Below the pieces are notes generated by a model. It was not told where the DNA came from, searched no databases, and saw only the letters and a program-made list of their open reading frames with translations. A stretch of DNA of 64,000 nt from Epinephelus fuscoguttatus (Eukaryota > Chordata > Actinopteri > Perciformes > Serranidae), in assembly GCF_011397635.1 (NCBI RefSeq), contig NC_064755.1, positions 23,325,559 to 23,389,558 on the forward strand. The letters are read 5' to 3'. The position numbers and the translations under genes were made by a program. This document shows, piece after piece, positions 576 to 39,500 of the stretch (the first letter of the stretch is position 1; every line of letters starts with the position of its first letter).

Positions 576-3500
576 ATGGCGACAATGTTCAGATACCCCG
601 TGTTCCCTCATCTGCAGGGTGAGTCAAGCAGAGATTTAAATTTGCAGGAGATAAAAGTGAAGTACGATGCTGTTTTAGTCTTGTATGTGCAGAATATGTT
701 TTTAAACATGAGTTTAGTCAGATATCAGTCTGTTCTCATTTCAGCTGGTCAGATTGTGACTTTTATCTGTTAAAAAAAAATCTTCATCACTTATTATTTT
801 AAATAGAGCATGTTGTGAGCTATCAGTCTGATACAAGAGGCGATGTTTTTAATGAGCAATAAAAGTTACTCTGATTTTGTACGAACAAGGAGGTATACAA
901 GGAGATCATGCAAAAGCCGTTTCAAGCTGCACATTTTTCATCAGTCTGATGAAGAGTGTGAAGCTCGTAACATCATCTCAGTGGTAGTTAAACTAAATAT
1001 ATGTTCATGGGAGCAAAGTCTGTATTTCTGCGACATTTTGTGTACACTGTGATTAACATGCGGCACTCATCAAACTTGCTGCATTCCAGTTATCTCTCAG
1101 CTTTGTTGCAGCGTGATAGGTGACACTTTTTTCAGGAGATATACTGGTTTAGCACAAGCTGTTTTGATTTCTATAAACAGTTCAGTTTAGGACTAGATGG
1201 TACAATCCTCGATGCACATACTTCAGACTATGAGTGGGAGTACTAGTGCCGTCTGGGGGTCCAAGTGGGAGCCAAAGGGTAGATGAATAGAAGAGTAGGA
1301 AAGGGCAAAGGTAGATACAAAAGTAAGAAGGAGCATATGGCTGTACACTCTGCCTCCCCCTACTCCCTCATTTTGATGAAGGAAGAGGGGGGAGAAAATA
1401 CACTATCTTCGGTTTTTAGCTTATTAAGGCAGCGTGCCCACTTTTAGTCCTAAATCCTTTGATTACTGAGGTCATGGATTGAAGCTTTGGGCTACTATTG
1501 TTTCAGCAACTTCTGCAATGTTTACATAACTATGTGCCTGTACTGTTCTGATTCATCTCTTCGTTATATTGAATATGGCTTCAGGCGGTGGGATGAGATG
1601 TTCCTCCACTCAGTGTGAACAATTATGTAATTCCAGCCTGAGTCCTATCACTATAGAGACGATTCAGAAACTGAGCGTGAGCCAGAGGATCAGGCAGATG
1701 CTCGTGTCACGATTTGAAAGGAGAAAAAAAATAGATCCCTGAAGAATGTGTCCTTGCAGGAGAGATTTAAGAGATTTCTGTCACCACTGCCTCGTCACAT
1801 CCAAACCCATGTTACTGAGAGAAAGTGGTTAAATGGAAGTTTGTTTTATTTGTTTCTGTCGATTCAGATCCGTGTGACCCTGGTCTGTCGCTGTCAGCAG
1901 GGAGGAGCGTCATGGCGGAGCCCGACTACCTGGAGGGGGACTGTGATGAGCTCATCAAACCCAAGAAGCTGATCAACCCGGTCAAGAACTCCCGAAACCA
2001 CCAGGACCTGCATCGAGAGCTGCTCATGAATCAGAAGAGGTCAGGAGACAGAATAATACACCCTCAGCACCTCTCTCTCCTTGTCCCCTCTTTATGTCTT
2101 TTTATCACAGTTTAAAGCACATAAACAAAATCAAAACAACAAAGATGGGCGAATTCCAAGCCTATGAATAGAGATAGTAGTTTATTCGTTTACTGGGGTG
2201 ATAAACCTCTGTTGGTGTCCAACAGTTTCCTGGATCATCATCATTTTCTTGTTTGCTTATGGCAACAATCTCAAGCTTACCCCCATCCAAAACAGATTAG
2301 TCAGGGGAAAGCAATACAGTGTCCAGATCCAGGCTAATTTAGTTAACTAATGGAGGATGAGTTAACACAGTCGCCCTGCTGCTTTGTTGTAATTGGCTTG
2401 ATCGCATCCAAGCACACTGTTCTGATGCTCCTGCAGTGTGTCACTGGAGGTGACTTCACTGGACCACCCCACCCAACCTCCAGCAGCAGTATTATGTAAA
2501 GCTGTGGATATAAAACTTTCATAGGAAGCTATTATATAAAACCCCAAGTGCATCCAAGTGTCAAAAATTGGTTATGTAAAGGTCACGCAGATGTGCCGTA
2601 CGTGAGGAACCTGTTGTGGCTACTGATATTAGTGCAGACTGTGTGAGCATCCGTCACATGCATACTGGGGCCCGCCATCACCCTTCTGACACTTAATGTT
2701 TGCATTTTCTCTCACCAAACAGCGGCGGCAGCTTTGTGCCCGAGCTATTAATAGCTACGCAAACGCACATGCTGTTGACAGCTGTTACATCACAGCAGCG
2801 ATGCTCTGCTCCTAAACAGGTCAAAGAGTAAGGTGCTGCTGCAGAGATGGAGGCAGGGCAATAATGAATGATGGGAAAACAGGCCAGGGTGGGCAGGATC
2901 AGGAAGCCTAGGAGGAAATGTCATAAAAATATTAGAAATTCCAAACGCGGCGAGGTATTGTTTCTCGTCGTCTAGACGGAGAGAGTCCCGGGGCATCAGG
3001 AGAAGTCTGCGAGATAAATCTAGTGGGCTTTTTGGGGGATATACTTGTTATGATAGGGCTCTCTGTCGTGCACTGAAAGTATAGAAAGCTTGCCTGCGTA
3101 GTGGATTAGTCACGCCGATGAGAGTGGGGAGGGGTGGGGGTGGGTGGATGGATGCATGGATGGATGGATTGGCTGCATGAAGAAAGAAAAAATGTGTTAT
3201 GTAATCAAGATTACAAAACAGTCTCTCGCCGAGGGCCTTTCTCTGCCGTCGCTACCTTAGCTGCGATGACCCTTCCTACACACACATACAGAGGAATTTC
3301 AGAACCTCAGCCACCAAAACTGGCGAAGCATTTGAGCAGATGGAGGTATTGATGTGTGAGCACACATTCTTCCCAGTCTGCTAGAGGGTGTGCACTCATA
3401 GGAAGTCACGGAGAGGAGGGTCAGTGATTATGTAAACGTTACCAACGGTGAAAGGAGAGTGGGGTAAGCATCTTAATAGCCTGTTTTACTGCTCTCCGTG

Positions 3501-5145
3501 ACCTTGACCCTCGCGTGGTGCTTGAACACAGCCTGAACAGATCACGTCTTCTACCCTCTGCTCTGCTTCACACTGTTAAATGCTGTCACAAGACCCACTC
3601 TCAGGCAAACCGGGACATTATCTGCAGCAGTGACTTGAGATAAAGTGGTGGCTTGTTGTAAATTAACTCCCACTCCCCGGAACACTGTGAGCTCGGTTAT
3701 GCAATCTTCAGGATTTAATAATGCATTTAATTAAGACACTGTTGTTGGCGAACTGCAGTCAGGTGTTTTCTTTGAAGAACAGAGGCAGGCTTTCATGACG
3801 AAAGGGAAATCAGCACCCAGGAGGAGAGGTGGAGGTGGACAGTATGGTTTTAAAATTGAATTAACGATGTAATCAGGGACATGGAGGATGGATTTTCTGA
3901 CCAACAGATAGCCTCTGCCCTTTTACTACACTTGATTCTTTTATTCTTGTGTTGCACTTTGTTGTGCCTCCCTAATCCTTTGTGGGCTTTGCTATTTATT
4001 GCCTTCTGCCTCGACTCCAGCCCATCTCTGTTCCCCTCTGTCTTAAGTACCCCTCCTCCCAAGCCTCATCCTCAGCCCCCACCCTCCTCCCTCGTAATTT
4101 GGAGGAGTTTGGAGCATTACGTAACATTTGGTATTTTTGTTCTTCGCAAGACACGCTCACACTTTGGTAAAATGTCCCGTCCTGAAATTTGCTGAACAGC
4201 CCGGGCTGTTGTGTAACAGTCTCGCAAGTTTACCAGAGACTTGTAACTTCGAGATAGTTTCCTTGTAAGGAGTGTGTGTTAGATAGTTTAAGATATGGGC
4301 TGTTGTTTTTGGGACTAAGAAAAGGGAAAGAAAAGGGGGAAATATGCCCTCAGTTTCAACTCTCTTTTCCAAAGTCAGTTTCAACACTGGCAGACTTCAC
4401 ATTCACCGACTGGTGTATGTGGAACAATCTGTGATTGGGCTCCTAATCAAAACTTTCCTGAAACACGACTGACATTTTTAATCCACAACATCTAATACAG
4501 ATCTGCACGTCAAACTAGAATGAGGTCACGGTCATCATCTGTTACGCATGAACGCAAAGACTAATCTCCCGCTGAGTGGGGCTCTGTGGTGTCATCGGAT
4601 GTTGCTCATTAAGCTTTGTTTTAGTAACATGCTGTCTCACTGATTGTGCGCAGGGGTCTGGCTCCTCAGAACAAACCTGAGCTCCAGAAGGTTCTGGAGA
4701 AGAGAAAGAGGGAGCAAGTGCTCAAGGCTCAGAAGGAGGAGCAGGAGGCCCACAAGAAGAGGAGCGACCTGGAAATAGAGCTCATGAAAAGACAACAGAA
4801 ACTAGAGCAGGTAAATGATTGAAAGCATTAAAGTAAACTGTCACTTTTGCACTTAGATGGACCTAGTTTCTTGTTTCTGATGACTAGAGCAAACACAGAT
4901 TAAAGTTGCTGACTGGACTTTGCAACATGAAACAACATGCATCTGTCTAACTAGTGCATGAAAAACTGCTTTCACATGCAGTGTCTCCCCTTAGTCTGAC
5001 TTTGTTGTCGTCTGTCTTGTTGCAGCTGGAGCTGGAGCAGCAGAAAATCGAGGAGGAACAGGAGAACACTCCTGAGTTTGTGAAGATGAAGAGCAACCTG
5101 CGCCGGACCAAGCAGGAGACCGACGGGGAGGAACGGACCACCTAA
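576..5145 (+). CDS. fam107b: FAM107B (DUF1151 family coiled-coil protein)
   Basis: Coding exons: 576-618, 1868-2039, 4654-4810 and 5026-5145. The conserved short form starts at 1912 ([10 protein letters not shown]) and has 134 residues. It carries the family signature with [25 protein letters not shown] and [18 protein letters not shown], then a Glu/Lys/Gln-rich helix from about residue 58 to 105 that should form a coiled coil, and a tail with [13 protein letters not shown]. These match vertebrate FAM107B closely. The paralogue FAM107A (DRR1) binds actin and responds to stress, and a related cytoskeletal role is inferred here. An upstream exon (576-618) joins in frame through G|AT and would add 29 residues ([14 protein letters not shown] and onward). 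Intron 1 (619-1867) and intron 2 (2040-4653) show no recognised repeat. Family assignment is certain; use of the long N-terminus is inferred. Confidence 0.95.
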
Positions 5146-7249: not shown

Positions 7250-8560
7250 CAAAACAGTCAATAACATGAGGAACCAGGTGAGGAAAGAACCACCTATAGG
7301 GAGCTCATCCTCACTAAGAGGTGTCGCAGCCTACGGCCACAGGGAGCACCACCACAGAGACCACCCCGACCCAGATAGACTGGGATGGACTCCACACATG
7401 GTGCAGAGCCCCCCAGTCCTCCGGACCTGAGTGATCTCCAGGACGACGTCCCCGCGGGCAGACCGGGCACACCTCTCAGTGTGGAGGCCCCCCATGAGGA
7501 AACACTGGAGCTAAAAACTAAGAGACTAAAAGGCAATATGATAAGATAAAACAAGTATGAGATAAAATAATGATAAATAAATAAATGAAGATTTAGAAAC
7601 TTAATAATAATGAAATGCATAAAGATTAAAAATAAATCATTTAAAAGCATCAGAAATTAAAATAACATATAATATAAGAATTAAAAGAATAAAAGAAATC
7701 AGTTAAAAGCTAAATTTAAAAAGGTGAGTCTTGAGCCTCCTTTTAAAAACAACAGTCTCTGCAGTCCTGATGTTCTCCGGCAGGCTGTTCCATAAGTGAG
7801 GGCCATAATGGCTGAATGCAGCCTCCCCGTGGGTTTTTGTTCTCACTTTTGGAACAATTAAAAGGCTGGTGCTGGAGGACCTCAGGATCTGCGAGGGTTG
7901 ATATGATAAAAGCAGGTCAGATAAATAAGATGGCCCAAGGCCGTTAAGACATTTAAAAACTAATAAAAGAACCTTAAAATCTATCCTGAAACACCCGGGG
8001 AGCCAATGCAGCGACTTTAAAACTGGTGTAATGTGCGCCCGCCCTCTGGTCCTTGTCAGCACTCTTGCGACTGAGTTTTGAAGTAACTGCAGGTTAGAGA
8101 TGGTCTTTTTGGGAAGACCAGAGAGCAGGGCATTACAGTAATCTAAACGACAAGAGATAAAAGCATGCATCAGCACCTCCGTGTTAGCCTGAGAGAGGAC
8201 TCTGGCTATATTCTTAAGATGATAAAAACCTATCTTTGTTACATTTTTTTACGTGTGGAATAAAACTAAGCTCAGAGTCAAAAATGACGCCCAGGTTCTA
8301 TACACATTGTGAAGGTTTAAAATCTTGTAGTTTTGGTAAAAGTTTCTCTCTCTGGCCTTCAGGACCAATAATTAAAACCTCTGTTTTGTCCTGGTTGAGC
8401 TGTAGGAAATCCACTGCCATCCATGACTTGATATCTAAAATACAGTTTAAAAGGGTATCAATTGGCCCTGTGTCATCAGGAGACACGGCGATGTATGGCT
8501 GTGTGTTCATTGTTGAGGAGGTTTATACCAGGAGCTGAAATATCTGCAGAGGTCTTTTCC
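7190..8560 (-). pseudogene. truncated L2/CR1-type LINE reverse transcriptase
   Basis: Read on the minus strand, 8510-8298 gives a late reverse-transcriptase segment (NCILDIKSWMAVDFLQLNQDKTEVLIIGP). After frame breaks near 8240-8180, 8176-7703 gives the C-terminal part (SRLDYCNALLSGLP, then LQNSVARVLTRTR, SLHWLPGCFRIDFKVLLLVFK, and LWNSLPENIR). This is the typical end of fish L2/Rex1-like non-LTR elements. The endonuclease and the catalytic YADD part of the RT are missing, so the copy is 5'-truncated and dead. A (TTGA)n-like tail plus a CA tract near 7190-7245 marks its 3' end. Confidence 0.85.
7218..7245. repeat. (CA)n microsatellite
   Basis: About 14 uninterrupted CA units directly after an (ATCA)n run, at the 3' end of the inserted LINE. 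Confidence 0.9.
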
Positions 8561-9486: not shown

Positions 9487-12400
9487 ATGGCCGCCTGTGG
9501 GCTATTCCGCTCCGTCTCTTCCAACTTTTTCACAGTTTTGCCTTTACTTACCCGCTCGGCAACACTTCTACCCTTACGGCTGGCATCTAAACCTTATTTT
9601 GGAAGAACACTAGCCACGTCTAGTCGATTAACAGCAGGTATTCCTCCGTGAATGTGTCTTAATGTAGCATGTTAGCTAACATTTTCGGTAGCTAGAGGGT
9701 AACGGTAGCTAGAGAAAAGGACACGAGAGCTGACGGCGCTGCTGCATGTTTGTCCGTTTTTCTTCTGGTTGTGATTCACGCACAATACTTCAAACTCTTC
9801 TGCTGGGAGGCGTTTTGTGTTCTGAGTTTGTTGTGTTATTTTGCAGCGCTTAAGTTCACAGACAAGCACGAATGGATTCGAGTAGAAGAGGACGGAATTG
9901 GGACTGTCGGTATCAGCAAGTTTGCGCAAGTAAGTTTCCTGCGGTCCCTGCGGTGCGCACACTCACAGACACACGCATGATCATGCAACACAAAGTAAAC
10001 AGTTATGCTACTACCTTTGACCTTGGTTTCTGCTCCTTGCAGGAGGCTCTGGGAGATGTAGTTTACTGTGGACTGCCAGAGGTGGGAACACAGCTGGCTC
10101 AACAAGGTATGAAGATCAGAGGAGTGTAGCTCAGGCTTACATTACATTACACACCTGTAAAGTACTAATATGAAATTAATAAAGCCTGTTGCATGCGTCT
10201 GTTATAATGCGTTTCCTTCTTTTTTAATCAAATGCACATGATTAATTATCTGATGTTGTCAGTATCACTACTGCCAGTGAGTCTACAGGTCCTAAAAAAG
10301 TCTTAAATGCCTTAAACTCAGTATTACAACAATAAGGCCTTAAAGGTCATTAAATAGTCTCAATGGTCTTAACTACTACAAACATTTTATCTAATTTCAT
10401 TTTTCAATTTCATCTTGTGAAAATGAGTAAAGCTTTCTGTATAAAAGTCCACCTTTGTAATGTTATAAATCTTTAAAAACTATAATACTGTCATTTTGCT
10501 TCATACTTGCACTTACCTGTTGGCTTAACTCACTCCAATAACCATATTCCTACATAACACTTACCTCTGCACAAGACCACATATATACTACTTCCCTGCA
10601 ATGCTTCCCTGTGTTGTTTAAATAAGTAAAACATGATTTGTCCCAAAAATCTGTCCTAAATTTGCTTAAAAGGTGTCTTGAACGGGTCTTAGAAAGCATT
10701 ACATTTTACTATCTGATACCTGTACACACCCTGACTGTTATTACTCAATAGATGGCAGCAAGGTCACTACTCTTAACTTGCTTTTAATGTACAGATTTAA
10801 AATGTTCAATTTCCTGTATGAATAGTAGTTTAAAATAAAATCTTGTTTTAGTTCAACTTGAGGGCATCAGAAATGACGTGCAGGATAAATTGGTATTATT
10901 TTTGCCTATTGGTTCAAGAGATTGTGTGCAGTTTTGAAATGTTATAGATGTATTAAGTTTTTCCAACACAACATACCTTACAACACATGGATACTTAAAT
11001 AGTAATAATCCTAATTAATGTTGTCACAAATATTGATGCATCAATACATATAGATTCTGAATATTTAAAACACAATTTGCAGACTAATATTCTAAATTAT
11101 CAGTACCAGCTGTGCTTTCTCGCTTTGTTTTACTGTTATATTCACTACAGTCATTCTGCTACTAACTTTGAAAAAAGTCATCATTGTTATGTTAGCCTTA
11201 TTGTATTTAATTTTTAATTAATAATGTAAATTGTGTACCCACAATGTCCATTTTCCCTGTGGTTTCAAAAGTGATATTGAATATGAATACTTTCCAAAGT
11301 ATTGAATCAAAGTTTTAAATTCCAATATTGTGACAACACGACTCAAAATAAATGATTCTGCATTTTAAAGCAAGAGCTACATAATTTTCCCCTCAGACAA
11401 AGTATGTTGGGAAACAATCATTTGCATGGCAACTTGCCATAAATGCATTTGGTTGTAAAATGCTTGTAACACCTGTGTTTGGGCAAATAAATGTAGACAA
11501 ACCACAAACACGTAACCTAGGTCAACATAACCTAGCTATATTTGCATGTGTCCTCTGTGTCATTGCCACACTTCTGAAATGCTCTAACTTTGATGTGAAT
11601 GCACTTCTTTCTAACATCTCCTGTGACAGATGAGTTTGGAGCTCTGGAAAGTGTGAAGGCTGCAAGTGAACTCTATTCCCCTTTGACCGGAGAAGTTGTA
11701 GAGGTCAATACACTACTGGCAGATAACCCTGGTCTGGTCAACAAATCCTGCTACAAAGATGGTAAGGACACTCAAAACATATTTAGTCCAGGGGCGACCT
11801 CTAGCTCACCTGGTTGGTGTGTGCCCCATGTAGGCTGAGGTAGCAGCTTGGGTTCCATTCCAACCTGCAGCTCTTTGCTGCGGGTTATTCCCCCCCCCTT
11901 CTCTCTCTCCCCTCTTTCCTGTCTCTTTCCAGCTGAACTATAATAAAGGCAAAAAGCCCTAAATCTGATCTCTAAAAGGTACATAGTCCATGTAGGTCAT
12001 TCTGTTATTCGAGTAAGGTATTGGAAAGTGAAAGAAGCCAAAATTACTTTGGGCTAATGTGAAGGAAACGGAAGCAAAGTTGTAGGATGATTTTTGACTG
12101 TATTGACAACCCTCTGCACTGGAGTCTAAGGTCATATATACAGTTTGTACATTGACGCTAGTCTTTGTTTACCCTCTAAATACTGTTACTGCCACTGTCG
12201 TTTGACCGGTGTATATCTTGCAATATAAATTTGGTCAGTGTTTGGAGTTAATACACTGGGGAGCTTCTTGTGTTGAAACAACAAACAAGTTTTATACCCA
12301 AACCTAATGTTTATAGATAAATGCTTTGCATGTACTCGTTCAAAAATATAATAATTTAATATGCTGTGGATTGAAAAATGAATACATATGCACTGATAAA

Positions 12401-15332: not shown

Positions 15333-18300
15333 TCACCTGAGTGAAGCAACCGCCCCACCAGGTATGATAGAAAACCTGTCCTTGGCTGTTGGAGTTCGTC
15401 TGGCCCTGCCCCGGGGTGCAGGAGGTCGAGGAAGTCCCTCCATTCTGCGATAATCGCTCTCCAGCCTCTCTTTTCTCTGAACTCCCTCGTTCATCACACT
15501 GGCAGTAAAGTCTCTCTCGTTAAGGAAGGCAATGGTCTCATCCCTCTTACGGCTCACGTATCCTTTCAGAACAGCATTGTAGGGATTTGAGGCGGCATCT
15601 GCGTCTGGATCTTCTAGCTGGTGTTTAAATTCCATGCGGGTGATAACGGGCAACAGGAACTGTTTCCTCTCTCTCACGACACCGCCATCCCTGTGTGATA
15701 AGCCCAGAGTCTCAGAGAGTAGGCGTGGGGGCAGGGGCACCAAGTCAGAGCCTGTGCGCTTGTCCACGTACTGTCCAAACTCTACCCGTGCCCGAGCTAC
15801 ATCTTGCAGAGAATGACTCCTCCTCTCCTCCAGGTCTGTGACTATTCTCTCTGGGTATGTCTGGCCTAAGACCACACCTAAACAGTGAGGACAGCAAGGA
15901 GATTTGTTTGACAAGGTGTGGAACTGCATACTTCAGGTAACGTTTCAATACAAAAAAGACCCACAGCCTTACAATGAGAACTTCCTTACCAGCACGTCGA
16001 AGCATGGACGCAGGACATTTCCAGGGTTTGTGAATGAGCTCATCAGGCAGAGCTGCAAGTTCGGGACACCACTTCCTCACGTAGCTGCCATAGGGGTCGC
16101 AGGTCATTGCTGCATCGACGGGGTGCATGACAAAATTCCAGTGATCCAGACCACACATGCCTCCATTCTGCCACATCATAGCATCTATGGCAACATCTGC
16201 ATCCACCAGGGTGTCCTAAACACGCATATTGGATACAGGTAGTAGGTAGAACTTATTATCAGGTGTGTCGCTGCTATTCGATATCTGTGAGTTTTGTGGC
16301 TGTGTGCCTGCACATCTCACCTGGAACCAGCGGTAACCTTCTTGCCAGGGCAGATAGAGATATGCTATGAGAAACGATGCCACCACATGTCTCATGTAGT
16401 TGTTCATCCAGCCTGTAAGCCACAGCTGCCTCATGGCTGCGTCCACCAGAGGGTAGCCTGTTTGCCCTTTCTGCCAGGCCTTCAGGTGGCCACGATCATT
16501 GCTCCACCGTAGAGCCTGCAAGTATCAGTATATAAATAATGCTATGTTAGTTCTTCATAGTGTGATAAAGGCTTTTAATTACTGATGGAGAGAGTTATAT
16601 GTGTCATCAAGGCATTTGTAGCCAATGTCTACCTTGTATGGAGGTCTGAGGGATTCCCAGGGGAGGTCAGGAAACAGTGTCAGCTGCCAGTAAGCCAAAT
16701 CTCTCCAGGCAAGTTTGCGTTGGAACTTTGGGGATCGACAGCGTGCCCCTTTGGCATCCCACAACAGCCAGCGTGGGCTGAGCTGACCAAAGTGAAGGTA
16801 GGGAGACAGACTGCTGGTATTTGGTGCATCTGCTCTACCTGACTCTTTTTCGTATCTATACACACCTAGATGACATGGGACAATCATAAAATACTGTTAG
16901 ATCAATGCCACACTTCTTAACATTCCTCCAAACTCAGTGTATATTAACGTTTACTATGTGTACGCAAGGTGTCTCACCATCATTCAGAAAGGCCTCCAGC
17001 CGGGCACATGCTCCTTCTTCACTGAAATCCCAGGATTTACGAATGTTTGCTGCCCAGTCAATCTGAAAGCCAAAATGAACACACGAATATATAGAGGGTT
17101 TCATGATGTTATTTTAAGTGAATGTTGGGATATAGCTCTGCTGTGGTTACTGACCACTGTGCCATCCTTCCTGCGGGGCATGCGTGCCAGGCCTAGTGTG
17201 TCCAAAGAGACACCCTGAGGCCAGTGGGCAGGTGTGGGGAGAGATGCAGGAGGGTCCAGGGGGGCTCCTAACCCAGACCCTGGGTTTTCTTTGCAGCAGG
17301 TCATGAAGTGAGACACTGAACCTATTCCTATACCAAGAGAAAAAGACCACAGGAGTTGTATTACCACATGTTTTAAGCTTTAATGTTTACCACAAATATT
17401 TAAGGAATCTCAGTACAGCAAATTAATTTTGTTGTGACTAACCTCTGAGTCCCACACCCTCCGTGCTGACAGAGTAAGGGTCTCTGAGACAGTACGAGTG
17501 AAGCATCCTGCATTCAACACCATCTTTATGGAGGGCTGACACCACTGCATCATCCCTCTCCTTCAGCCAGGGTTCATAAAGGCTGTTAGCCAAGACTGTT
17601 CTCGCCCCCGTCTCTTTTACTAGCTCCCTCAGGGTACGCAGAGAAGATCCATTTGCATTGAGGAAGACAAGGTGGCTGCCAATGTGCTCCAGAGATGAAG
17701 AAAAACAGGATAATGCTTGATGAAGCCAGTATTTACCTGTTAGAAAAGAGAAGATGTGATTGGACAACAATCTTGAGCAGTGATGCAATATCCTTTGATT
17801 AAGACTAACAGTAATCAACTTACAAGCTCCTCCCATGGCCACTGTGATCCCAGGTCCCTCCTCTTCTTCAGCGCTCCAGATGAAGACAGGAATGACAGGT
17901 GCACCAACCTCCAATGAGCCAATGAGAGCAGGGTTGTCCCCGAGTCTCAGGTCCCTCCTGAACCACAGCAGTACTGGTGGCGTTGCTGATGGAGAATGGG
18001 GCAAACCTACGACCTGCTGGCCAGCGCCCTTACGGCGCTGTCGCCTGTTCTTTGAGCGTTTTGGTCTTTCTGGTGGATCCATATCTCCATCATCCATCAT
18101 TTGATCACCTTCTTCAACCGTGTCGTGCTTGGAAAGTGAGCCAGACAGTCTGGAGACACACACAGTCTGATTTGTTCCTGTTGTCTCAACGCGTGTGCTT
18201 TTTTGAAGGTCAGTTTCTTGGGTTGTCTGTGGTGTGCTCGTCTTGACCCAGGCTCCAGTTTGTGGCGGTTTGGTGTTTTCTCTTCTGCCAAGTACACCTG

Positions 18301-21300
18301 TTAGTTGGGTCTGATTTAATCTGTCTCCAGGTTGCTGTGATCGGGACTCTTGACCAGGGGTTGACAGCTGGTGATCCTTCGTTTCCAGTAAAGAGAGAGC
18401 CAGTGCAAGTTCCAGTTCATCATCTTCTGTCTAGAATTGAATTAAGACAATCCATTATGATTATTTCTGGTAAAATAACTACAACAGAGCAATTATGTAT
18501 GCACTGTACCTTCTATGATACCTTCTAAACACCAAGGGTGACGTTGTGCAAAATCTATGCAGAAATGTTTCTCTTTGGTAGCTGCTAGGCACAAAAGAAT
18601 TTCACTACATGTTGTCCTGTGTAAGATTACAAATGTGACAAATACATGTTTTTTGATTTGATATTCTTTGTTATGAACTATAAAGGTTGCTGTCAACAGT
18701 GTCAACTTGAAATTTCTTATTGTATTTTTGACATCAAAAAGACCCACACACTCCTAAGACAGCCACACTTATTCAAACTGATTAGACCTCTTCTCTGGAC
18801 TGTGTCGGATATTTCTCTGACTCCTCCGATAGCTTACACCTTTGCCATTTTTGTTAGTACTAGGGTGATGATGATAATTATCGTATTTACATAAATGTAT
18901 TTATTTTGTTTGTTTTACTAGTACTTAGTATTTATGGAAAAAAAATTCTCATCAGAACTCTGGTGAGCAGGGGTCTAATCCACTGGTTCCATATCTGGCA
19001 GTCCCAGCTCAAATTATGGGTCACCTAAGCTTCACAGGGTGGTTGTGAGGCCTTCTTGGCTTTAAGCAGTGTAAGAAACTTTTTTTAAAAATCATACAGT
19101 AAGCCTATATCTCAGCATTGTATTCATTTCTTTGAAGAAAACTGAATGGAATTGTTATTATTAAAGTTTACATTATTGTTCAAGATATAAACTTATAAAT
19201 AATCTGACAGTATAAGGGCACGGTGAAGACCTGAACACAAACCATATTCACAAAGCATTTATTTTGTTCACTATGTTAGTAAATTGTGCTGTTTATCAGT
19301 TGTTCTGTTCTGTTATTGTTATGCATTGAATATAGTATTAAATATCCATAAAATGTGTCACATAGTCAGGGGTCATCAGTTTATTCAATGATAGAAAAAG
19401 CGATCACTTAAAGGGTTGGGAACTACTCTTCTTACTGACTAGAATACCATGAAACTTCAGTTAAAAGCCTAGTCCCAATTAAACGCCCAGTCCCTTTTAC
19501 TAGCCCATTGTGGCTATACATCTTGACAAATAAACCCCTGTCTCAATTAGATGCCTGGTCTGGTTGCCAAGCAGTTCTTTTTCTAAGAGGTTCTTTGAAA
19601 GTACAAATCCGGGTCGTTGGCTACCTCAAGTTATGTCTCCATTCCTCGATTACCCTGTAATTTATCAATGTTCCTTTAGTCTGTAAGGGTCTTTGGATCT
19701 AAGGAATCAAAAGGGTTTTTCATAAAAATTTAATCAAGTTTTGAGTATTGTTTTAACAGGATAAAGTGGTGTTGTTTCAGTATGCTGGATGCCGTAACCT
19801 ACAAGTGCATCATTCACTCTCTTTCTGATGCGCTGTCTGTCGGAGCTAGATCAAATGAATGATTCATAATTAATATATTATCTGAGGCTTAATTTTTAAA
19901 CAAGTAATATTCATACTGGTTTTATAAACAATTTGATTGTATTTCCTGATCTTTGCTGATTTACAGTTTTGTGTGAAAGGAATTAACGTCCTGTCTCAAA
20001 TCCTCCTGAGACCCTGTGTCCTCACATGAGGACATCACATTTTGGGTTTACTTGACCTTATACTTCATTCTACTTAACTTAGACCTGTTGTCCTCATTTG
20101 TGGACACTTTTTGTGCAACCTTGTGGTAGTAAGAGCACAATACACTAATTCCTTGTAAAAACAAGATGGCTATCATCTCAGCCAAGTCAGTCTGCACCCG
20201 ATCCCGACACGAAAGTGAACAAGGTCCACAACCTGATCAGATTTTATGTTTGAAATTTGACTAGTTTTAGCAACAATAATAAGCTAAGACACTATTAATT
20301 AGGAAGTACTTATTTGAAGGACTTTATTATGGTTGACAATGTTAATTTTTTTTATACTTATTGAATCCTACTGATCCCAAATAACAAAGAGAAATTAAAA
20401 ATGCATACCAGGAAGATAAAGACACCTGTCCCAAATATAGGCATGTTGCTTTCCATGATCTAAGCAAATAGTAGCCCGGGCAATTATTTTTAAGTTTTAC
20501 AATAAGTGAAAACACCTGAGTGATAAGGTGATTAGATTCGTGATTAATGGCTTCAATCATTGTTTTTTTTTTTTTTTTTTTCTTCATGACATACAAGAAT
20601 GGTGGTAATCTTACCATGTTTTATTATTAATACTAGTGGTTTTCAGACCTGAGGTGGTGGCTTAATTATAATTTTTGCAAACTCAGGTAATGGAATTAGT
20701 ATTGTTGATACATTAATTTTCAATAAATTACACTTTAATGTATTTCTAACTACAACTTCTAAACTTTCAACTCAAAGTATGGCGTCCGAGGAAGGTAAAA
20801 ATAATGCCACTACTGGGGCTCCTGCTACTAGCAGAAGCTAACACAAGCTAGCTTTACCTGATATACCTACACAGCAGGGAGTCAGGTAGCTTAGTTAGCG
20901 TTTTCGTAAAGAGGAGACGGGTAAAGGTAAAAAAAAAACAAAAACAAAAAAAAAAAACAAAAAAACTTTCGCATAATTAGCACGCTACGAGTTAAAAAAC
21001 AGTTAAAAGACCAATTAAAGTGGCTTTTTAATTTGCCCATTGTGCTCTATTTTTGCTAACGTCAACTTACGCTAACTTTGTTACCTAGCTAGTTGTTTGC
21101 TAACTAGTTAGCCGCTGACAACTTCGCCCAAGGGTTGGGCTAATTTGGGGTCTTTTGCCTCTTGTTGTGGCCCAAAATCCATAAATGCAGTTTAAATAGG
21201 TAAGTAAAACACAAAACACCAACTTTATATACATAAAAACAATTTTACTCTCTTGCTATTTTGTCAAAGTAATTTCAAACATACTTGGTTACCACCAAAA

Positions 21301-21688
21301 TTAAAATATAACGTTAGCTAATTCTTGAATTGAGCATTACTCTTTAAGTTTGTTTTCTTTTCACGTAGTTAATTCATTTGTAACTTTGAACCACTTTGAA
21401 GCCCAGGATTTGAAATGTGCTACGGCGTTATATTCATATTGAACAAACACTTACCTTATTGAAATATTCCGTGTAGATGGAGGTGAGGATGGAGTGCAGG
21501 GAACTGTTGGCCGTGGACAGGGGCTGGATGAGGGACAGAAACTGTGACCGGGTCTCCTGGTGCCCCAGAGCGGACACACACATCACGAAAAACCCCTCTG
21601 GATCCTCTCGACCCACCAGCACTTCCCTCAACATCTTCCTCACCAAGACTTTACCATCTTCGGCTCCAGACGCTGCTGAAGGAGGCAT
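15333..21688 (-). CDS. plant-like cryptochrome/photolyase with UIM-like N-terminus
   Basis: Nine exons: 21688-21455, 18430-17824, 17736-17443, 17327-17155, 17062-16978, 16865-16633, 16515-16321, 16215-15990 and 15877-15333. They sum to 2,592 bases (863 residues) with consistent phases. Residues 1-78 form an unrecognised, probably helical segment. Residues 80-93, DDELELALALSLLE, match a ubiquitin-interacting motif. Residues 94-228 are low complexity with a basic patch (RPKRSKNRRQRRK, about 200-212). The photolyase domain starts at about 229 (PVLLWFRRDLRLGDN). FAD-domain marks are TGYPLVDAAMRQLW, WMNNYMRHVVASF and DTLVDADVAIDAMMWQ. By alignment with Arabidopsis CRY1 the Trp triad is W546/W599/W622, and D618 takes the N5-proximal position (Asp in plant cryptochromes, Asn in CPD photolyases). 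A C-terminal extension follows the domain. Role: a flavin blue-light receptor or repair enzyme; the exact subfamily is not settled. Intron 1 is about 3 kb, and joining exon 1 rests on phase and splice sites. Confidence 0.88.
18500..18672 (+). mobile_element. retroposon 3' tail in cryptochrome intron 1
   Basis: The stretch with GAATTTCACTACATGTTGT, then TGTGTAAGATTACAAATGTG, ending in a TTTGATTTGAT run, resembles the 3' end of fish non-LTR retroposons that finish in (TTTGA)n. Only the tail is clear; the 5' boundary is uncertain. Confidence 0.5.
18673..21454. other. cryptochrome intron 1, remainder
   Basis: This intron sequence probably contains dispersed repeats. One at about 19436-19580 has repeated CCCAATTAAACGCC/TCTCAATTAGATGCC phrases. 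Another at about 19990-20175 is built around a CCTCACATGAGG palindrome. There is a poly-T run at 20562-20581 and A-rich (A)nC runs at 20930-20967. No further exon of the gene was recognised. Confidence 0.4.
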
Positions 21689-21890
21689 CTTAAGGTAAAC
21701 GGTCACGAAGAATTATAGCTCTAAATGCTGCAAAGCTGCTGTGCGTTAATCCAAGTCTTGTGCATAGGTTAGGCTCTGATATTTAACACATAATGCACTC
21801 CACGTCCTGAACCTACCCCTCAGCACCGGTTACCAAACAGCTGATTTTGAGTTACACAAGCCATGTGTTTGTGTTGTGTAACCTGCAAAG
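21689..21890 (-). promoter_or_regulatory. cryptochrome promoter region
   Basis: This is the upstream side of the minus-strand ATG at 21688. No TATA box is seen at a suitable distance. An inverted pair GTTACACAA (21851-21859) and TTGTGTAAC (21874-21882) resembles PAR-bZIP/D-box sites, and CACGTC at 21798-21803 is E-box- or CRE-like. D-boxes are known to drive light induction of teleost cry and photolyase genes. Function here is inferred. Confidence 0.4.
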
Positions 21891-24800
21891 CTAAAGGCTT
21901 GTAATAGGTTGGTATCACCAGTAGGGGATGTACAAGTCTAATAAATCAGAGCTATGTAGGGAGGCTAGTGAAACCCATGGGTGCCTGGATGTTGACTGAG
22001 TAACAGTTGGGATTCCCTGTTTACATTTCATTAATTTGATATTAGGTTAGAGGGATATAGATGTGATTCACATGCTCCAGGAATATCTATTTTTGCCATG
22101 AGTATCTCCCTCTTCCCTCTCCCTCTATCGCTTTCATCGTCTCATCAACAGTGTAATCACTCCTCTGCCAAATGTTACATCTCAACAAAAATATGTCATG
22201 ACAAGGGCCCACACACGCTAAATCCAATCAAATAGAGATCTTTGGTTCAATTTGAATTGATGTAAAAAATGGGGGGGGCATCTACCGTAAGATAATCGTT
22301 CTTTAATTTTTGCATAGCCTTCATCTTGACAGGAATGTGGTCCTTTTCAAGTGCACCCTGTGATGTGAGACTGAAAAACAAAGCCAGGAGACAATGTACC
22401 CAGCAGTGAATTTTTAATCATGCTCTGTATTCAAGCTGTAGAAGGGTTGCTAAGTAATTGATTTTTTTAATGAGACCATGCATAAGCTTTTGAACGTACG
22501 CAGCAGGGGACAATAATATGTGACACTTGTGGACCAAACTCTAAAATGCTTTGTGCTGTTGATGAGGTCCATTTATAACACTGTATTACTTATTTTGTTC
22601 ATGCTAAAATGCTCTCAAGTGTTCATCTAAAATGGGACTCAGGGGGTGGGCTTCATGTACAAGGACATACAGTCTCAATTATTCAGGCTTTTATCTGAGA
22701 AGAAGTCAGAGTGTGTGAGGAGAAGATGTGTTGAGAGCTGTGGTATGTGGCGAGAGCAAGCCAGAAAGAGAGGGAGAGAGAGAAAGAGATTGAGAGAGAG
22801 AGAGAATCAATAGTGTTTAGACAGAGAAGTGGAGTCTAAGTGTGTGATCAATAGAGAGCAGAGAGGAGAGATTAGCTGCTTTTCTCTCTCAAACTAACAC
22901 TGACAAATTGGTGAATTGGTGTATCGGCCCTTGGGCTAAACGGATTGACCTGCTGTTTCCATGTTCTACCGTGTACTGTCAATAAAGATCTGTGTTCGTT
23001 GTGGCTCTCAATGAAGAGGGTGAATGAAGCACCGGAAAAGAGAAAAAGGGAAAGGAAGGAAGGGAAATGGAGAACTCTTACAAGGGAGAAGCAAAGCACA
23101 GCTCAGGTGCGCAGGTAGCCTCGATCCTCACGAAATGTCCACACCTTTGTCTCATTAACACATACGTGCGCTCACATGTGCATCCTCGTGCATACTGTTA
23201 TAAAACCATAATAACGTCTCCAGGAAAATTAATGGAAAGACAGATTAAAAACTAAGTGAGGAGAAACGGGCCACTGGTGTAGCTATTTGCAACTCATAAA
23301 TCATTCTGACACACCCACGCGCATGTAGACACATGCATAGACACACACACACATACACGCACACACGTACTGTAATTAACCACAGGCTATTTACTCTCTC
23401 CTGCTGTAAATTAGACATGCAGACACAGTTATTACATTAGGGGGATCTGCCATGCAGAATACTAACAGGAGGAGGAGGGGACACGGGTACACACAACAAA
23501 CCGCTCCTACAAACATAAACACACACACATACACGCACACAAGAAAGAGGGTATGGAAGAATCATAGACTGACGGGAGTGAAAATGAAGCTGCAGCACAG
23601 AGAATAGGGGCCCCCAGCTCTTTGTTCCCTGCTGCATTTCATTATCTGAAACGCCAGCCAACACACACGACACACACACACAACGCACCTCCCCCTTCCC
23701 TAAAGCTGTCTGCCTCCACTTCATGCACACAGCACAAAAAGAGAGGAAAATAGAGATACTGCGTCAGTGCCATTCACTGGCATCTGGACTCGGTCATGAC
23801 AAGCATGTCTGCATGGTCATCCTGAGCAGATCAGCCCGTCCAGAAGCCGCTCTGAGTCTAACACTTCCCTTCAGCCTGTGCTGGCAGAAAGCACCTTCCC
23901 TTATATTCTTTTTTAAGCAAAACAATAGGAGATAAGGACTTGATTAAAACAAGTATTGATACCCTGTCTCGGGTAGCTTGTCTCCATTTAGTTCATTTGA
24001 AGTTTTTTTTTCTTCTGGCAGTCCACCTCCTTCTGTTTGTGTGTGTGTCCTCTGGTTCCCCCTACCTCCCTCACCCCTCTCTGTCCCTCTGTTTTCCCAC
24101 GGTGATCGATAGCTCATTACAATCATTGACTGCGGCTCATCAGCACCTGTTAAGGTCTGGAGAGACAGAGAGAAGGTGCATGAGCATCTGAGAGTGTGTG
24201 TTGTGTGATGCAATCTGATTGATAAACAGAAAAGATTGGTCTGGAATGAGTCAGGGGTGAAGTTTGACATTTGAAGGGTTATTTTCTGATTCACATTCAT
24301 TGCTGCGGGTGTCTAGTTTGTCGCCGCTTTATGGTCCTTGGTCTTGGAGAACATCTTATTATGCAACTCACGTGGGTACCATGGTTTGTTGCTATGGTGA
24401 TTGCCAAGGGAGCCAGAGTATTATAGGTGTTTATCCTAGACAGGAGCAAGGCTACTCACCATCTATCAGGACACGCTTCAATTTACCACACAGTTTGGAC
24501 CACACATTAAGATCAACACAGTCACGGAGGGACAAAGAGAAAACACAGTGTACAACACAGCCTAGTGTGGATGTGATTTAGTGGATAGATTATTCAATAT
24601 TCATATTCCTGGAAGAAAGACCTTGTTCAAACACTCAGTTGTTGGTTTAATGCGTCACTGCAGGGTTTGTTTTTGGAGAGGACAGGCTGTGAGCAGAAAG
24701 AAGCAAACACAGAGAAGAACAGAGAGACTCTGAGAGACTATTAGAAACTACAAACCATGGTTAAAGGCAAGGGGAGATGTGTAAAAAAAAAAAAACACTA

Positions 24801-33525: not shown

Positions 33526-36500
33526 CTAAGCTCTGTCTCTCTCCCCTGCCCCTGCGGACAACTCGGCCTGCTCCCTCTCTGCAGAGTCAGAACTCAGGCT
33601 CCTGGCCCTCTTCTCCTTGGCTCTGGCATTCTGGAACCACACCTGCAAAAAAAGAATTATATGAATACATTAGCCATTACCTTTAAATAATTGTTCTGAA
33701 ACACATTGTTAATCTTTAATAAACGCAGTTCAAACTGCATTTTCTCATTTATGAATATTTGAAACATTTACCTGCACCACTCGGTGAGGCAGTCCCAGCT
33801 CCTGGCCCAGTGTCTCACACTCATGTCGGTTAGGGGTACGGTGGCTCCTGTAGAAGTCTCTGAGCTGGAGTACCTGGAAGTGGCTCATCTGTGTCCTTTG
33901 GCGCTGCTGCTGTTGTTGCTGCTGTTGCAGACTTTGTGTCTCACCCCAATCTGAGCTTGGACCCCCAGATCCCTCAGGACTAGGAGACCCTTGGTCAGCC
34001 ATACTGGAACCCTCCTCACATGGGTACTCCTCGTCCTCCTCCTCATAGTCCTCATCCTCCTCTGGGTTGTTCAGATCAGTGTGTGACGATAAAGAAGTTT
34101 CAGGCAGCTTCACAGTTGACTCTTTGTTAATGATGACATAGCCATGGTTTGGGATGAGGTTGGAGGAGACAGATGGGCCCGGTCTGTCCATGACAGATGA
34201 CAGAGCCATCCCAGTCTGCCCGTTGGATCCATTACTCATCGATAAGTTGAAGCCCGCTCTTTCAGCCTCTGCCCAGTGGCGTGACCTCATATGGGCATCC
34301 AGAGCGCTCTTTACCTTGAAGAGAGCCCTGCAGAATGGGCAACGCAGGTGGTTCAAACCCATGCTGAAACTGGATCCTGGCCCCATTGATCGGAACTGTC
34401 CTTTTCTCTCTCTGGCCCGTGTATTTTGAAACCAGACCTGTGAGGGAAAGACCAGCATTTTTTTAAATTCCACATACACAAAACAACAAGTCATTTTCTG
34501 TACATGGCTTTCTATTTCTCTCTTTCAAAAACATTGACATATTCAAACACAGCAAACATCCATAAAATACCTGAACCACACGTCTTGTGAGGCCTACATC
34601 CCGTGCAATGCCTTCCAGGACTCCTCTGGTGGGGTTAGAGTCCATACTGTAGCGCTGATACAACACTTCAAGCTGTTCTGGAGTGATGGTGGTTCTCTGA
34701 CGCTTATCCCTTCGATGCTCTTCCTCAATCTCTCTATTGCCCCTTTGGCCTTCAAAGCTGGTTTCTGACATTAGCTTTGAACTCTGCTTCATCTGTGTCA
34801 GGGAACTTTGAGAGAGGCTGGTGAGGGTGTTGCTTGGGTGATCAGAGAGTGTGTTCTTAATTTGTATGCTGTTTAAATGTGAAATCATAGGATGTGTGGG
34901 ATTAGGGTGCATCTGGGACATAGCTCCTGAAAGCATTTGACTGGCCATTAGGGTGTGGTTGGGGTGGAGCATCATATAAGGCATGGTTCGGTCTGTAAAG
35001 CCAGAGTGGAGAAATTGGACCTGGGATTGAGCTGCCAGAAGGTGCCTGGTCTGATGCTCCTGCCACAGCTGGAATGAAGGCAAGGACATTGGGCACAGGC
35101 TGCACTGGAACTGAGCCTGGGTTTGGGGTTGGAGCTGTTTTTTTGGCTGGGTTTCAGTGGATAGGCCAGAGGTGGCATCAGGCATCCGACTGTGGCTCGT
35201 TTCAGACTCTGGAGCAGCAGGGAGACTGGGTGAACTATCACCAGGCTTTTCAACAGCTTGATCAGCAGGAGGGCTGTGGGTATGCCCCTGGCTGGAATGA
35301 GCTGTGGACACGATGGTGGTAACTGTTTTTTGTGAAGAGGAGGAAGAGTGAGTCTGGGGTCTTTCTGAAGTACTTTCTGGCTGCACATAGGGCTGAGGTT
35401 GTGGAGAGGACCCTGTTATTATGGCCTGAACAACTTCCTTACGCTGGATGTCTGCATCTGAAATTCCATTTTGAGTTTCAACAAGACCTGGGCTCTTGTT
35501 AGCCTGAGGAGGAATTGTTTTATCTTCTTGTTTCCCAATAACAGGTGTTGGTTCACCTTTGACTGTTGGATGCTCAGTTTCTGTGCACTGAGAGGAAGAA
35601 TCAAGGACTGGTGAGTCAGGGGTGCTGTAATACTCATAAGTCAGATCCATGGAGTTTTCATTCTGAGATTCACCTTGTCTTTCATCCACACAGCTGTTAT
35701 CCCCAATATCACCATCATCATCATTCTTGTAGCAGTCATTTCTCTGTTTGTGAATGTTGTCAAGCTGGTTCTTCCCCTCTAATCCATCATCTGTGCCCCG
35801 GTCTTGATTTTTGCGGGCTCTCTGCCTAGCATTTTGAAACCATACAACAATGACTCTGTTAGGGAGAGACAGCAGAGCAGACAACCTGTCATATTCTTCC
35901 TCTCTAGGATAAGGAGTAGCCTCAAACACTCCCTGCAGGGTCTCCAGCTGTTGCTCCGTGAAGCGGGTTCGGGAGGAGCGCCGGCCCCTATGGAGCTCTC
36001 CTCTCTGGAGCTCTGTTGTCTGGGGCTGTGAGGAGGTGTTGGCTGTAAGGCCCGGTGACAGTGAACATGGAGACATTGTCAGAGGCTGGTTTTGTGCTAC
36101 TTCCTCTCTGGACTCCTCCAGGGCTGTGGTTGGGGGGTTATTAAAATTGTAAGGGGAATCCTTGTCTCGCTGGCGCTCTTTAAATAAGGTGTTGCGAAAC
36201 CAGTGTTTGATGACTTTATGAGGCAGACCAGAAAGAGCAGACATCTTGTTAATCTCTTCATCACTGGGGAGGCTGTTAATATCAAAGTGTTTCCTCAGAA
36301 CAGTCAGTTGCTCCTCAGAGATTCGGGTTCGGGTTCTCTTACTCTGTTGGTCAAGTATTGTTGGGCTGACTTGAGGTTGCTGTCCTGTTTGAACGGGGCT
36401 GGGCTGAGATGGTTGAGCCAGCAGCGCAGGATTGAGCTGTGGAGGCTGACCTTGCAAAGCTGGGCTGAGCTGGGGTGGCGGGACTAGCAAAGCTGGGCTG

Positions 36501-39500
36501 AGCTGCGGCTGTTGCCCTAGCAGTGTCGGGTTGAGTTGAGATTGGTACAGCTTGGCCAACTCAGGGTTCACACTTGAGTCTAACCAAGGTTGGGGCTGGA
36601 GACTCACAGACTGCATCATAACTGGAGGGAGAAGAGGAAGGTCCATGGGAAAAGGAATGGGAGGTAGGGGGAGCTTAGGTAAAGGTAGTGGGGCTATAGG
36701 AAGTTGGGGCAAGGAAAGAGGAAGCATAGGTATTTTAGGTAAGGTAAGAGGTATGGAGTTAGCTGGGGGTGTGGTATGAGAAGAAGCTGTAGCAGATGTG
36801 CTTGAGATGGCTGCTTCTTGTTGTGGGTTTTCTTGAGGTTGAGAAGGAAATTGAGGAGAAGAAGGTGCGGGGGCAGTTGGTGTCGGTTCAGCTGGAGTAC
36901 ATGTTTTGGTTATGGGATCTGAAAATGAGGGTGCAGGTGATGGTGCAAGAGCTTTAACTTGAGGCATAACTGGTTCTGATGCTGGTTCTGATTCTGGGGA
37001 AGGGGCTGGGGCAGCAGCTGAAGCAGTTGAATTCTCCGCAGATTTCGGCTGTGTGAGAGGGTACATCTGGTCATACTGAAGCCTGTATTCTCTGGAAAAC
37101 CTCTCCAGTGCAGGAGTGGGAAACAGCATCCTATGAATGTACTCCCGGTGGCTTTTTAAAATCAAGGCATCTGAAAAAAACTTGCCACAGTCTCTACATT
37201 TTTCTCCTCTACCACAACATCCTTTCTCTTTGTTTGTGGATTCCTCCTCTTTCTGCCTTTTCTCTTGTGGAAAGTTTTCTCTCTCCCTGTTGGCCTCTAC
37301 TTCTTTGTTATCCTCATTACAGCCCTCCATCTTTTCCTCCTGTAGTCCACTAAACTCAGCTCTTTGTTCATCTGAGCATACCTCCATCTTGTTGATATGA
37401 GAGCATTCATGTTTCTCCAGTATCATATGAGTTGATATCTGCTGCTGGTGTCTGTGTCTACTTTGTATGTATTGCAGTGCCAGCTCATAGCCATAACTCT
37501 GCAGCAGGGCTCGAAGAGGCTCCCCATTCACAGCAGCATAGGGCACTCTGGGAGGAGGACACTGCAATCCCAGAAGATTATATGAGGATGAATCTGTTTC
37601 TTCCCTCTGACTCTCATTTTTAACAGCAGGAGCAGGCATTTCTTCTTTTTCTTCCTCAAGACTAGAACTGCTTTGTTCTCTTTCTGACCTGTTGATGGAG
37701 GATCCACTGCAGCCAGCTTCAACCTTGGCTTCACACTCAACAAGATCTTTTGGTTGGCTAACAGCTGGGTTTAAACTTTGTCTCTGGATTTCTTTCTCAT
37801 CTATGCAAGGTTGGTACTCCTTTTTATCTTCTGCCTTAACCTGTTCTTTTAGGATGGAATTGACAGACACTAACTGACTAAGTTCTAGACTCTTAACAGC
37901 TAACTCTGGGTTAAGATTCATGTCTCCTGACAAGTAAAAGGGCAGAAGAAGTTGCTGCTGCAGAGAGAGCAAGTTCTCTGGTGCCAGAGGGAAGTGTTGT
38001 TTAAGAAGATTCTCTGTCCCTATGGGAAGGTGCTGCATCAATTGGGACTGGAATAGAGCTGTGTGTTGTTGTAACTGAGCTTGGGCCTGCGCCTGAGCCT
38101 GGGCTAACTGCTGCTGCTGTATTAACATTAGCTGGTTTCTTGATGCTATAATTTCCGCCACTCTCTTTTTAGCCTGCTGGCTGTCAGTTGGGTTAGAGAG
38201 GGCTGGCTGGGCCTCGGCTGCTAAGCCAGCGCCTAATAGTAAAGAGGTTGAAGAGCTTACTACGTCTGGCCTCTTGGTGAAAGGCAAACTCTTGGATGTT
38301 TCTTCTCTGGTGGTAGCAGCCTGAGTAGCAGTGGTGGGGACTGATACTGGAGCAGCTACGCTTGTTGCTGGGGTCTGTGGTGCTGAGTTCTGGGCAGCAC
38401 GAGCTCTAGTCTGATGAAGGACAGAGCGAAGATGTATGTCCAGTGTGGAGCTCTGGCTATAGCCCACTCCACACAATCGGCAGCGGTAGGGTCTAGGATC
38501 TGGGCCACGGGGAGCCTCAGGGGCAGCAACACCTGTGCCAGAGTCCTGCAGGGCTCGTCTGGCCCGATGGAGATGGCTCACAGAGTTATAGTGGACCAGA
38601 AGAATTGTTTTCTGAGTAAAAGATTCAGAGCATATTGTGCATTTGTAGGGCCTGGTTGGATCCAGATATCGGTCCATTGTGGGGTTCGAACTCTTTTTGA
38701 CAAGAGAGCTGGAAGTAGGTTCTGATATGATCTCCTCATGTGGCCCTTTCTCTGGCTCAGTTAAATCCTCCTCACCTCCATCAGCTTCACCAATCATGTC
38801 TTTCTCTTTTAATTTTACTTCCTCTTTTTGTTCCTCCTTTCCCTCCATGCCTAGTGCTTCTTCCTCTATCTCTTCATCCTCATCCTCTCCTGCTTCTTGA
38901 CCCACTTGAGGTGATAAACTAAAATCTTGTTGAACTGAATTTTTATTATGCTCCATGTACTGAGCAGTGTGAGGCGGCAAGAGTGTATTCTGCCCGTGTG
39001 TGTTGTCCAGCTGCGAGTGTGTGTTCTGCATGTGTCTCTGCAGGGCCTCCTGACTGCGGCATTGTCTAGAACAGAGGGGGCACTCTGTCGCCGCCCTCAT
39101 GGCGTGGTACTGCCAGTGCAGCTGGAGCTTCTCCTGAGTGGGGAACGCCAGGCTGCACCTGCTGCAACGGAACCGGTAACCATGGCGATCAGAGAGGGGA
39201 GGGAGGTCGCCGGGCGGAGAGGTGGGCGGGGAGGAGGGGGGTGTCTGAGTTGGGGACTGAGGAGCCAGTCTGCCATTGGAAGGGTGAGTGGTGTTGTCTT
39301 CTAGGGGTGGGGTGAGAAGAGCTGTGACATCTTTGGGTGCGGCTACATCTCCCTCAGTGTTCTCCACTGAAATGCCTGCAAAATGCATACAAACAGTAAA
39401 CAGTAAATTTTAAATAACATTAGATCAAGGAGACAATGTGTTCTCAATCAACTGCTATGACACCTAAGTTTTACGATGCGTTTCATACCAACCTTTGTTT

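Follow-up and report, generated by a model that had tools for sequence, protein, structure and literature searches.

Gene structure of a plant-like cryptochrome locus

We analysed a stretch of 64,000 nucleotides from Epinephelus fuscoguttatus (contig NC_064755.1; hereafter the window, whose numbering is used throughout) that carries on its minus strand, at 21688..15333, a predicted gene of nine exons. When joined, these exons encode an open protein of 863 residues that lacks internal stops. All eight predicted introns have a GT donor and an AG acceptor, and the stop codon ends at 15333. From its N-terminus, the protein comprises an exon-1 segment, a helix resembling a ubiquitin-interacting motif (UIM) at the start of exon 2, a linker that includes a basic patch, and then a complete photolyase-homology region. 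We conclude with high confidence, as regards both identity and architecture, that this locus is a teleost CRY6 (PCRY-like) gene. CRY6 is a little-understood, plant-like animal cryptochrome with its own ubiquitin-binding helix. The features of the gene are as follows.

21455..21688, minus strand: exon 1, residues 1–78, with the start Met and an N-terminal segment modelled as four helices
17824..18430, minus strand: exon 2, with the UIM helix, linker, basic patch and start of the DNA_photolyase domain
18383..18430, minus strand: putative UIM, residues 79–94 (TEDDELELALALSLLE), assigned from the consensus pattern, a sub-threshold Pfam match, the frog peptide and solved UIM structures
18029..18067, minus strand: basic patch, residues 200–212 (RPKRSKNRRQRRK), at a position close to that of the frog nuclear and nucleolar localization signals (NLS/NoLS, residues 212–221)
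17443..17736, minus strand: exon 3, closing with the VGLR motif of PCRY-like proteins (residues 375–378, 17444–17455)
17155..17327, minus strand: exon 4; its junction with exon 5 is crossed by a Takifugu quantitative PCR (qPCR) primer (3 mismatches)
16978..17062, minus strand: exon 5; its junction with exon 6 is crossed by a Takifugu qPCR primer (5 mismatches)
16633..16865, minus strand: exon 6, encoding the WRDLAY motif of PCRY-like proteins (residues 518–523, 16690–16707)
16321..16515, minus strand: exon 7, encoding two Trp residues of the electron-transfer triad, W546 and W599
15990..16215, minus strand: exon 8, encoding D618 and W622 as well as MWQNGG, a further PCRY-like motif (MWQN at 16165–16176)
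15333..15877, minus strand: exon 9, with the end of the flavin adenine dinucleotide (FAD) domain, a C-terminal extension and the stop codon

Exon 1 (21688–21455, 78 codons) ends in phase 0 at a donor in which AATAAG is followed by GTAAGTGT. Exon 2 starts at 18430, likewise in phase 0, is preceded by AATTCTAG and opens with the helix at residues 79–94, from which its frame continues unbroken into PPVLLWFRRDLRLGDN. An earlier interpretation made without database searches (the sequence-only reading) had proposed this phase-0 junction at a consensus donor and had placed a UIM-like helix and the start of a photolyase domain within one exon; both proposals are confirmed in the joined nine-exon model, and the phase 0/0 join and consensus splice sites indicate that exon 1 fits the same gene. 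The codon directly 5′ of exon 2 is an in-frame TAG, and the first in-frame Met of exon 2 is residue 189. Thus, an ATG start within exon 2 cannot give the UIM helix, and transcripts beginning inside that exon, which the sequence-only reading had named as grounds for abandoning its proposal, are made unlikely.

Assignment to the CRY6 family

Family placement was ranked by hidden Markov model (HMM) and phmmer scores. The Pfam profiles FAD_binding_7 and DNA_photolyase match the protein with 227.6 and 103.8 bits, respectively. Five NCBIfam models match as well, the best being the plant cryptochrome model TIGR02766 (284.6 bits), with the 8-HDF photolyase model at 203.7 bits, and none reaches its cut-off. 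Among 51 matching solved sequences, the DNA photolyase 4u63 scores best (313.6 bits), followed by six cryptochrome entries at 243.5–249.1 bits (6x24 highest, at 249.1) and then by matches of at most 162.7 bits. We take 4u63 to be the Agrobacterium class III photolyase and 6x24 to be plant CRY2, and the other five high-scoring cryptochrome entries are presumably also from plants.

The protein contains all three motifs that define the PCRY-like subfamily (PMC9498864; this and the other publications are cited from the portions of their text available to us), namely VGLR at residue 375, WRDLAY at residue 518 and MWQNxG at residue 621. The last of these occurs in 100 of 103 PCRY-like sequences versus 0 of 2144 sequences from other subfamilies (PMC9498864). 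Furthermore, each of the four Takifugu Cry6 primers in the literature fits best within the spliced coding sequence. They lie there in the expected order and direction, with 2, 2, 3 and 5 mismatches, and the two qPCR primers among them cross the predicted exon 4/5 and 5/6 junctions. By comparison, the same table lists 48 primers for 12 other genes, and these controls show a median of 8 mismatches to the coding sequence, with none at 3 or fewer and two at 5 or fewer. The presence of all three motifs, along with the fit of all four primers, leads us to assign the gene to teleost CRY6.

A search of the genome with residues 78–863 recovers exons 2–9 at this locus and seven matches elsewhere at 32–42% identity, and no second CRY6 copy was found among the genome candidates scored. 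A CRY-DASH profile yields 13 matches in the same genome, of which seven fall together at C21:19980296-19983945, the highest reaching 100.3 bits within a single exon. All fall below the whole-protein cut-off because exons were scored singly, and the cluster is a probable CRY-DASH gene on the basis of these grouped matches. PCRY-like and CRY-DASH genes usually co-occur in a genome (PMC9498864). The name 'Cry6' in PMC4350181 and PMC7553075 denotes a Drosophila-type group, and we set those reports aside as not concerning the CRY6 studied here.

A ubiquitin-interacting helix at the start of exon 2

Residues 79–94 conform to the UIM rule of an acidic run followed by Leu-x-x-Ala-x-x-x-Ser. The consensus pattern occurs once in the six frames of the window. 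It arises in 46 of 10,000 residue shuffles of the protein, or in 36 of 10,000 when a trailing acidic residue is also demanded. The Pfam UIM profile (PF02809, cut-off 21 bits) aligns at residues 79–92. It scores 12.8 bits on the full-length protein, 15.7 bits when the first 123 residues are taken and 18.8 bits on a 30-residue piece, whereas the corresponding 30-residue peptide of frog (Xenopus tropicalis) CRY6 reaches 22.4 bits. The two helices share 11 invariant columns of 32 and are identical at 9 of 11 residues over LELALALSLLE.

The first UIM face of the helix, represented by L84, A87 and S91 of the Leu-x-x-Ala-x-x-x-Ser core, is intact. On the second face, in which the same pattern is shifted by two residues, L86 and A89 are kept and the Ser is replaced by L93. 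This position is Leu in the window protein, Gln in frog CRY6 and Ser in Hrs, which makes double-sided binding less certain here than in Hrs. A profile built from the window and frog helices returned 16 rows when compared with solved structures. The top six are USP25, USP28 (two rows), ataxin-3, Hrs and ZFAND2B, with weak E-values of 0.043–0.34, and the lower rows comprise UBR4 (four), RAD51AP1, USP25, STAM2 and three that were taken as unrelated. Several of the matched structures, we assume, carry UIMs.

Taken alone, the window helix is a sub-threshold UIM. Taken with its orthology, it is convincingly a UIM as judged from sequence, as the sequence-only reading had proposed; the motif and the orthologous relationship both support this identification. 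The motif of Epinephelus fuscoguttatus CRY6 escapes the standard UIM profile. That reading had also held that a background profile score, together with an absence of conservation, would undermine the proposal: the score is indeed sub-threshold, and the helix is nevertheless conserved in frog. In glutathione S-transferase (GST) pull-down assays with shuffled and competition controls, the isolated frog CRY6 helix binds K48-linked polyubiquitin, and the UIM is conserved in Takifugu and zebrafish CRY6 (PMC11520951). By analogy, the helix in the window protein would in all likelihood bind ubiquitin chains.

The N-terminal segment

For residues 1–101, an AlphaFold2 model built from the single sequence places helices at 4–24, 30–41, 47–58 and 62–76, followed by one at 80–98. 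Confidence in this model is low (mean predicted local distance difference test score, pLDDT, 56.2; predicted template modelling score, pTM, 0.39), with pLDDT values below 50 at residues 1–7, 78–85, 91–93 and 96–101, which include much of the UIM helix. At this low confidence, the modelled order of helices agrees with that described for frog CRY6, whose N-terminal extension, some 200 residues long, contains a four-helix segment likened to KaiA/RbsU (PMC11520951).

Exon 1 gives no sequence match in the PDB at E-values up to 10, matches only DUF4454 in Pfam (E-value 0.12) and finds only itself in the genome at E-values up to 10 (two candidates scored, with no paralogue). The Pfam, PDB and genome searches thus reveal no relative of exon 1, whose frog counterpart had already been modelled as a four-helix, KaiA/RbsU-like fold (PMC11520951). 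Pfam DNA_photolyase begins at residue 231 and the UIM lies at residues 79–94, so the protein has the long N-terminal extension that is characteristic of CRY6.

Residues near the flavin and at the repair site

Alignments to solved structures show that the electron-transfer Trp triad is kept (W546, W599 and W622), and that D618 aligns with Asp of 6x24 and with Asn of 4u63. We take the three Trp residues to form a photoreduction chain and an Asp near FAD N5 to be a plant-type feature. Five positions were compared that we presume, from the Escherichia coli photolyase (E274, W277, N341, M345 and W384), to contact the cyclobutane pyrimidine dimer (CPD). They are occupied by K515, W518, N581, H585 and N624 in the window protein versus Glu, Trp, Asn, Met and Trp in 4u63, such that two of five are kept. 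The retention of the Trp triad and D618, along with the replacement of three of the five CPD residues, favours a photoactive protein without CPD repair. As judged from these residues, the protein most likely binds FAD and undergoes blue-light photoreduction through the Trp triad, and it has probably lost CPD repair. The published reports, in the portions available, do not discuss CRY6 residues near the flavin, and PMC11520951 names flavin binding and photoactivity of CRY6 as future work. This residue-level case for probable photoactivity without repair is an addition of the present analysis.

Proposed function and alternative explanations

These observations suggest a model in which CRY6 would act as a flavin photoreceptor of the plant-like branch, with its FAD photoreduced by blue light through the Trp triad, while the N-terminal UIM arm would bind ubiquitin chains. 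Its most likely role would be that of a light-responsive adaptor in the cytoplasm, through which ubiquitinated proteins come into contact with the flavoprotein. We give roughly even chances to the role of a photoactive ubiquitin-binding protein. A more specific proposal, which we consider rather unlikely, is that CRY6 is a light-gated ubiquitin reader, wherein FAD photoreduction, stabilized by the plant-type Asp D618, would alter how readily the N-terminal UIM reaches ubiquitin chains. Blue light might then directly determine what becomes of ubiquitinated proteins in the cells of fishes and amphibians. Light-dependent protein degradation has been suggested for CRY6 in general terms (PMC11520951), and the flavin-to-UIM switch with its residue basis extends that suggestion. 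If light does control the UIM helix, CRY6 would constitute a natural light switch on the vertebrate ubiquitin system.

Several observations weigh against the interpretation given here. The Pfam UIM score lies under the curated cut-off at all three lengths tried, and the literature, in the portions available, contains no evidence that light alters ubiquitin binding by CRY6. With respect to gene identity, the Takifugu primer with five mismatches is not distinctive alone, as two control primers reach 4 and 5 mismatches in the coding sequence; one of the 48 controls (a Neil1 primer) matches an unrelated site in the window with 3 mismatches; and three of four Xenopus Cry6 qPCR primers are unmatched (6–9 mismatches), with the fourth showing 4 mismatches at the VGLR region. 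Finally, full-length frog CRY6 tagged with green fluorescent protein (GFP) is cytoplasmic in human cells (PMC11520951), and the function of the basic patch in the whole protein is therefore only putative.

Three other explanations were considered. The helix could be an acidic amphipathic element that does not bind ubiquitin in Epinephelus fuscoguttatus, with exon 1 acting as a structural cap, which would fit the sub-threshold Pfam score and the second-face position at which Hrs has Ser, frog CRY6 has Gln and the window protein has Leu. We consider this improbable given that the first-face core is intact, that the orthologous frog helix binds K48 chains and that the CRY6-helix profile places USP25, USP28, ataxin-3, Hrs and ZFAND2B in its top six of 16 rows, albeit with weak E-values. 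It is somewhat less probable still that the protein functions chiefly as a CPD photolyase of the class III-like type, with the N-terminal arm as a localization device. The higher score of 4u63 than of the best cryptochrome entry (313.6 versus 249.1 bits) is in keeping with such an enzyme, as is the light induction of Cry6 in Takifugu cells, where it groups with repair genes (PMC5394683). Nevertheless, the equivalents of E274, M345 and W384 are K515, H585 and N624 where 4u63 keeps Glu, Met and Trp (those of W277 and N341 are kept), D618 replaces the Asn of 4u63 with the Asp of 6x24, and MWQNxG is absent from all 2144 sequences of other subfamilies (PMC9498864).

The remaining explanation, that exon 1 is part of another gene and CRY6 starts elsewhere, derives from the length of intron 1 (about 3 kb) and from a gene model built from sequence alone. 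It has very little probability in view of the phase 0/0 join, the consensus splice sites, the in-frame TAG before exon 2 and the position of the first Met at residue 189. Moreover, the four-helix segment of frog CRY6 precedes its UIM at nearly the same distance, and frog CRY6 residue numbers reach 862 compared with a length of 863 here. That exon 1 might belong to a different gene had been raised in the sequence-only reading itself, and it is made unlikely also by the published coding cDNAs of frog and pufferfish CRY6.

Relation to known cryptochromes and UIM proteins

Among solved structures, the top-scoring relative 4u63 matches residues 215–703 of the window protein, a span that does not include the UIM arm, and differs in keeping the CPD-site Glu, Met and Trp and the Asn near the flavin. 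The double-sided UIM of Hrs (PDB 2d3g), which we take to be an endosomal sorting protein, aligns as QEEEELQLALALSQSE with TEDDELELALALSLLE and differs in keeping the second-face Ser.

Among the closest known systems is Xenopus tropicalis CRY6 (Okano et al. 2023, PMC11520951), which resembles the window protein in its modelled four-helix segment, UIM, basic patch, photolyase-homology region and approximate length, and differs in having Gln rather than Leu on the second face and a higher-scoring 30-residue helix (22.4 versus 18.8 bits). Its UIM is described as overlapping, double-sided and inverted, and an NLS/NoLS is also described (PMC11520951). The sequence-only reading had supposed that an animal cryptochrome with its own UIM would be new; this supposition is not borne out, given the frog description published in 2023. 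The arrangement is real and already known in kind, and the window adds one further teleost gene with an open frame. Beyond PMC11520951, we found no publication on the CRY6 UIM in a search that excluded preprints and most subscription papers.

Takifugu rubripes TrCRY6 (Okano et al. 2017, PMC5394683) is an orthologue that we compared through the four fitting primers; its entire coding sequence was isolated, and its mRNA is induced by blue light with an LL/DD ratio of 4.17. The PCRY-like subfamily (Deppisch et al. 2022, PMC9498864), which includes the zebrafish 'plant-like Cry' (listed in PMC4564169) and oyster CgPCRY, shares VGLR, WRDLAY and MWQNxG. The oyster relative has an extended N-terminus, as in the window protein, which was noted in 2017 (PMC5224872). 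In contrast with the frog report, the available portions of this subfamily literature mention no UIM (PMC9498864, PMC4564169, PMC10733189 and PMC5224872).

Evolutionary origin

CRY6 is reported only from invertebrates, fishes and amphibians (PMC11520951). One paper argues that PCRY-like genes spread horizontally between aquatic organisms (PMC9498864); another favours loss from a metazoan ancestor and calls for a wider survey of microbes (PMC10733189). We searched for relatives of the photolyase-homology region and obtained three short-peptide pattern matches in prokaryote genomes, none of which was confirmed, and no matches in viral contigs. A DNA pattern encoding WRDLAY, 97 residues and MWQN likewise gave no matches in the prokaryote and viral collections. 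This pattern matches its own spliced coding sequence and, as expected, does not match the intron-containing window; it allows neither mismatches nor a change in spacing and would therefore overlook diverged members. With zero confirmed matches in both collections, we rejected a prokaryotic or viral source of the motif signature. Within the scope of these searches, which covered prokaryotes and viruses with algae outside it, the sequence evidence argues against a recent prokaryotic donor of CRY6.

Regulatory sites and neighbouring genes

No exact TTAYGTAA, a site that we take to be of the PAR-bZIP/D-box type, occurs at 21689–22500, and D-box light elements at the CRY6 promoter are thus unsupported; one exact site lies in intron 1, at 18887–18894. 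The repeats of intron 1 show nothing of note. Elsewhere, 8 of the 11 TTAYGTAA matches in the window fall within 1522–4124 (one palindromic site being counted on both strands), compared with 3.46 matches expected from shuffles of the whole window, and no direct repeat of at least 20 bases accounts for this cluster.

A Takifugu Neil1 primer that matches 37345–37366 with 3 mismatches falls in a zinc-finger homeobox gene, and we regard the match as chance. Neil1 was rejected as a neighbour, with the other three Neil1 primers showing 5–6 mismatches in the window and the sole Neil1-DNA_bind match in the genome lying about 3.3 Mb away. The long open stretch at 35501–39391 (minus strand), which encodes two homeodomain stretches and C2H2 zinc fingers, is probably a ZFHX-type gene. 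Exons of a glycine cleavage H-protein lie within 9696–11838 (plus strand), such that CRY6 sits between these and the ZFHX-type gene. An open stretch at about 1867–2040 (plus strand) appears similar to FAM107, and open frames at 7703–8522 (minus strand) appear similar to the reverse-transcriptase end of a LINE-type element.

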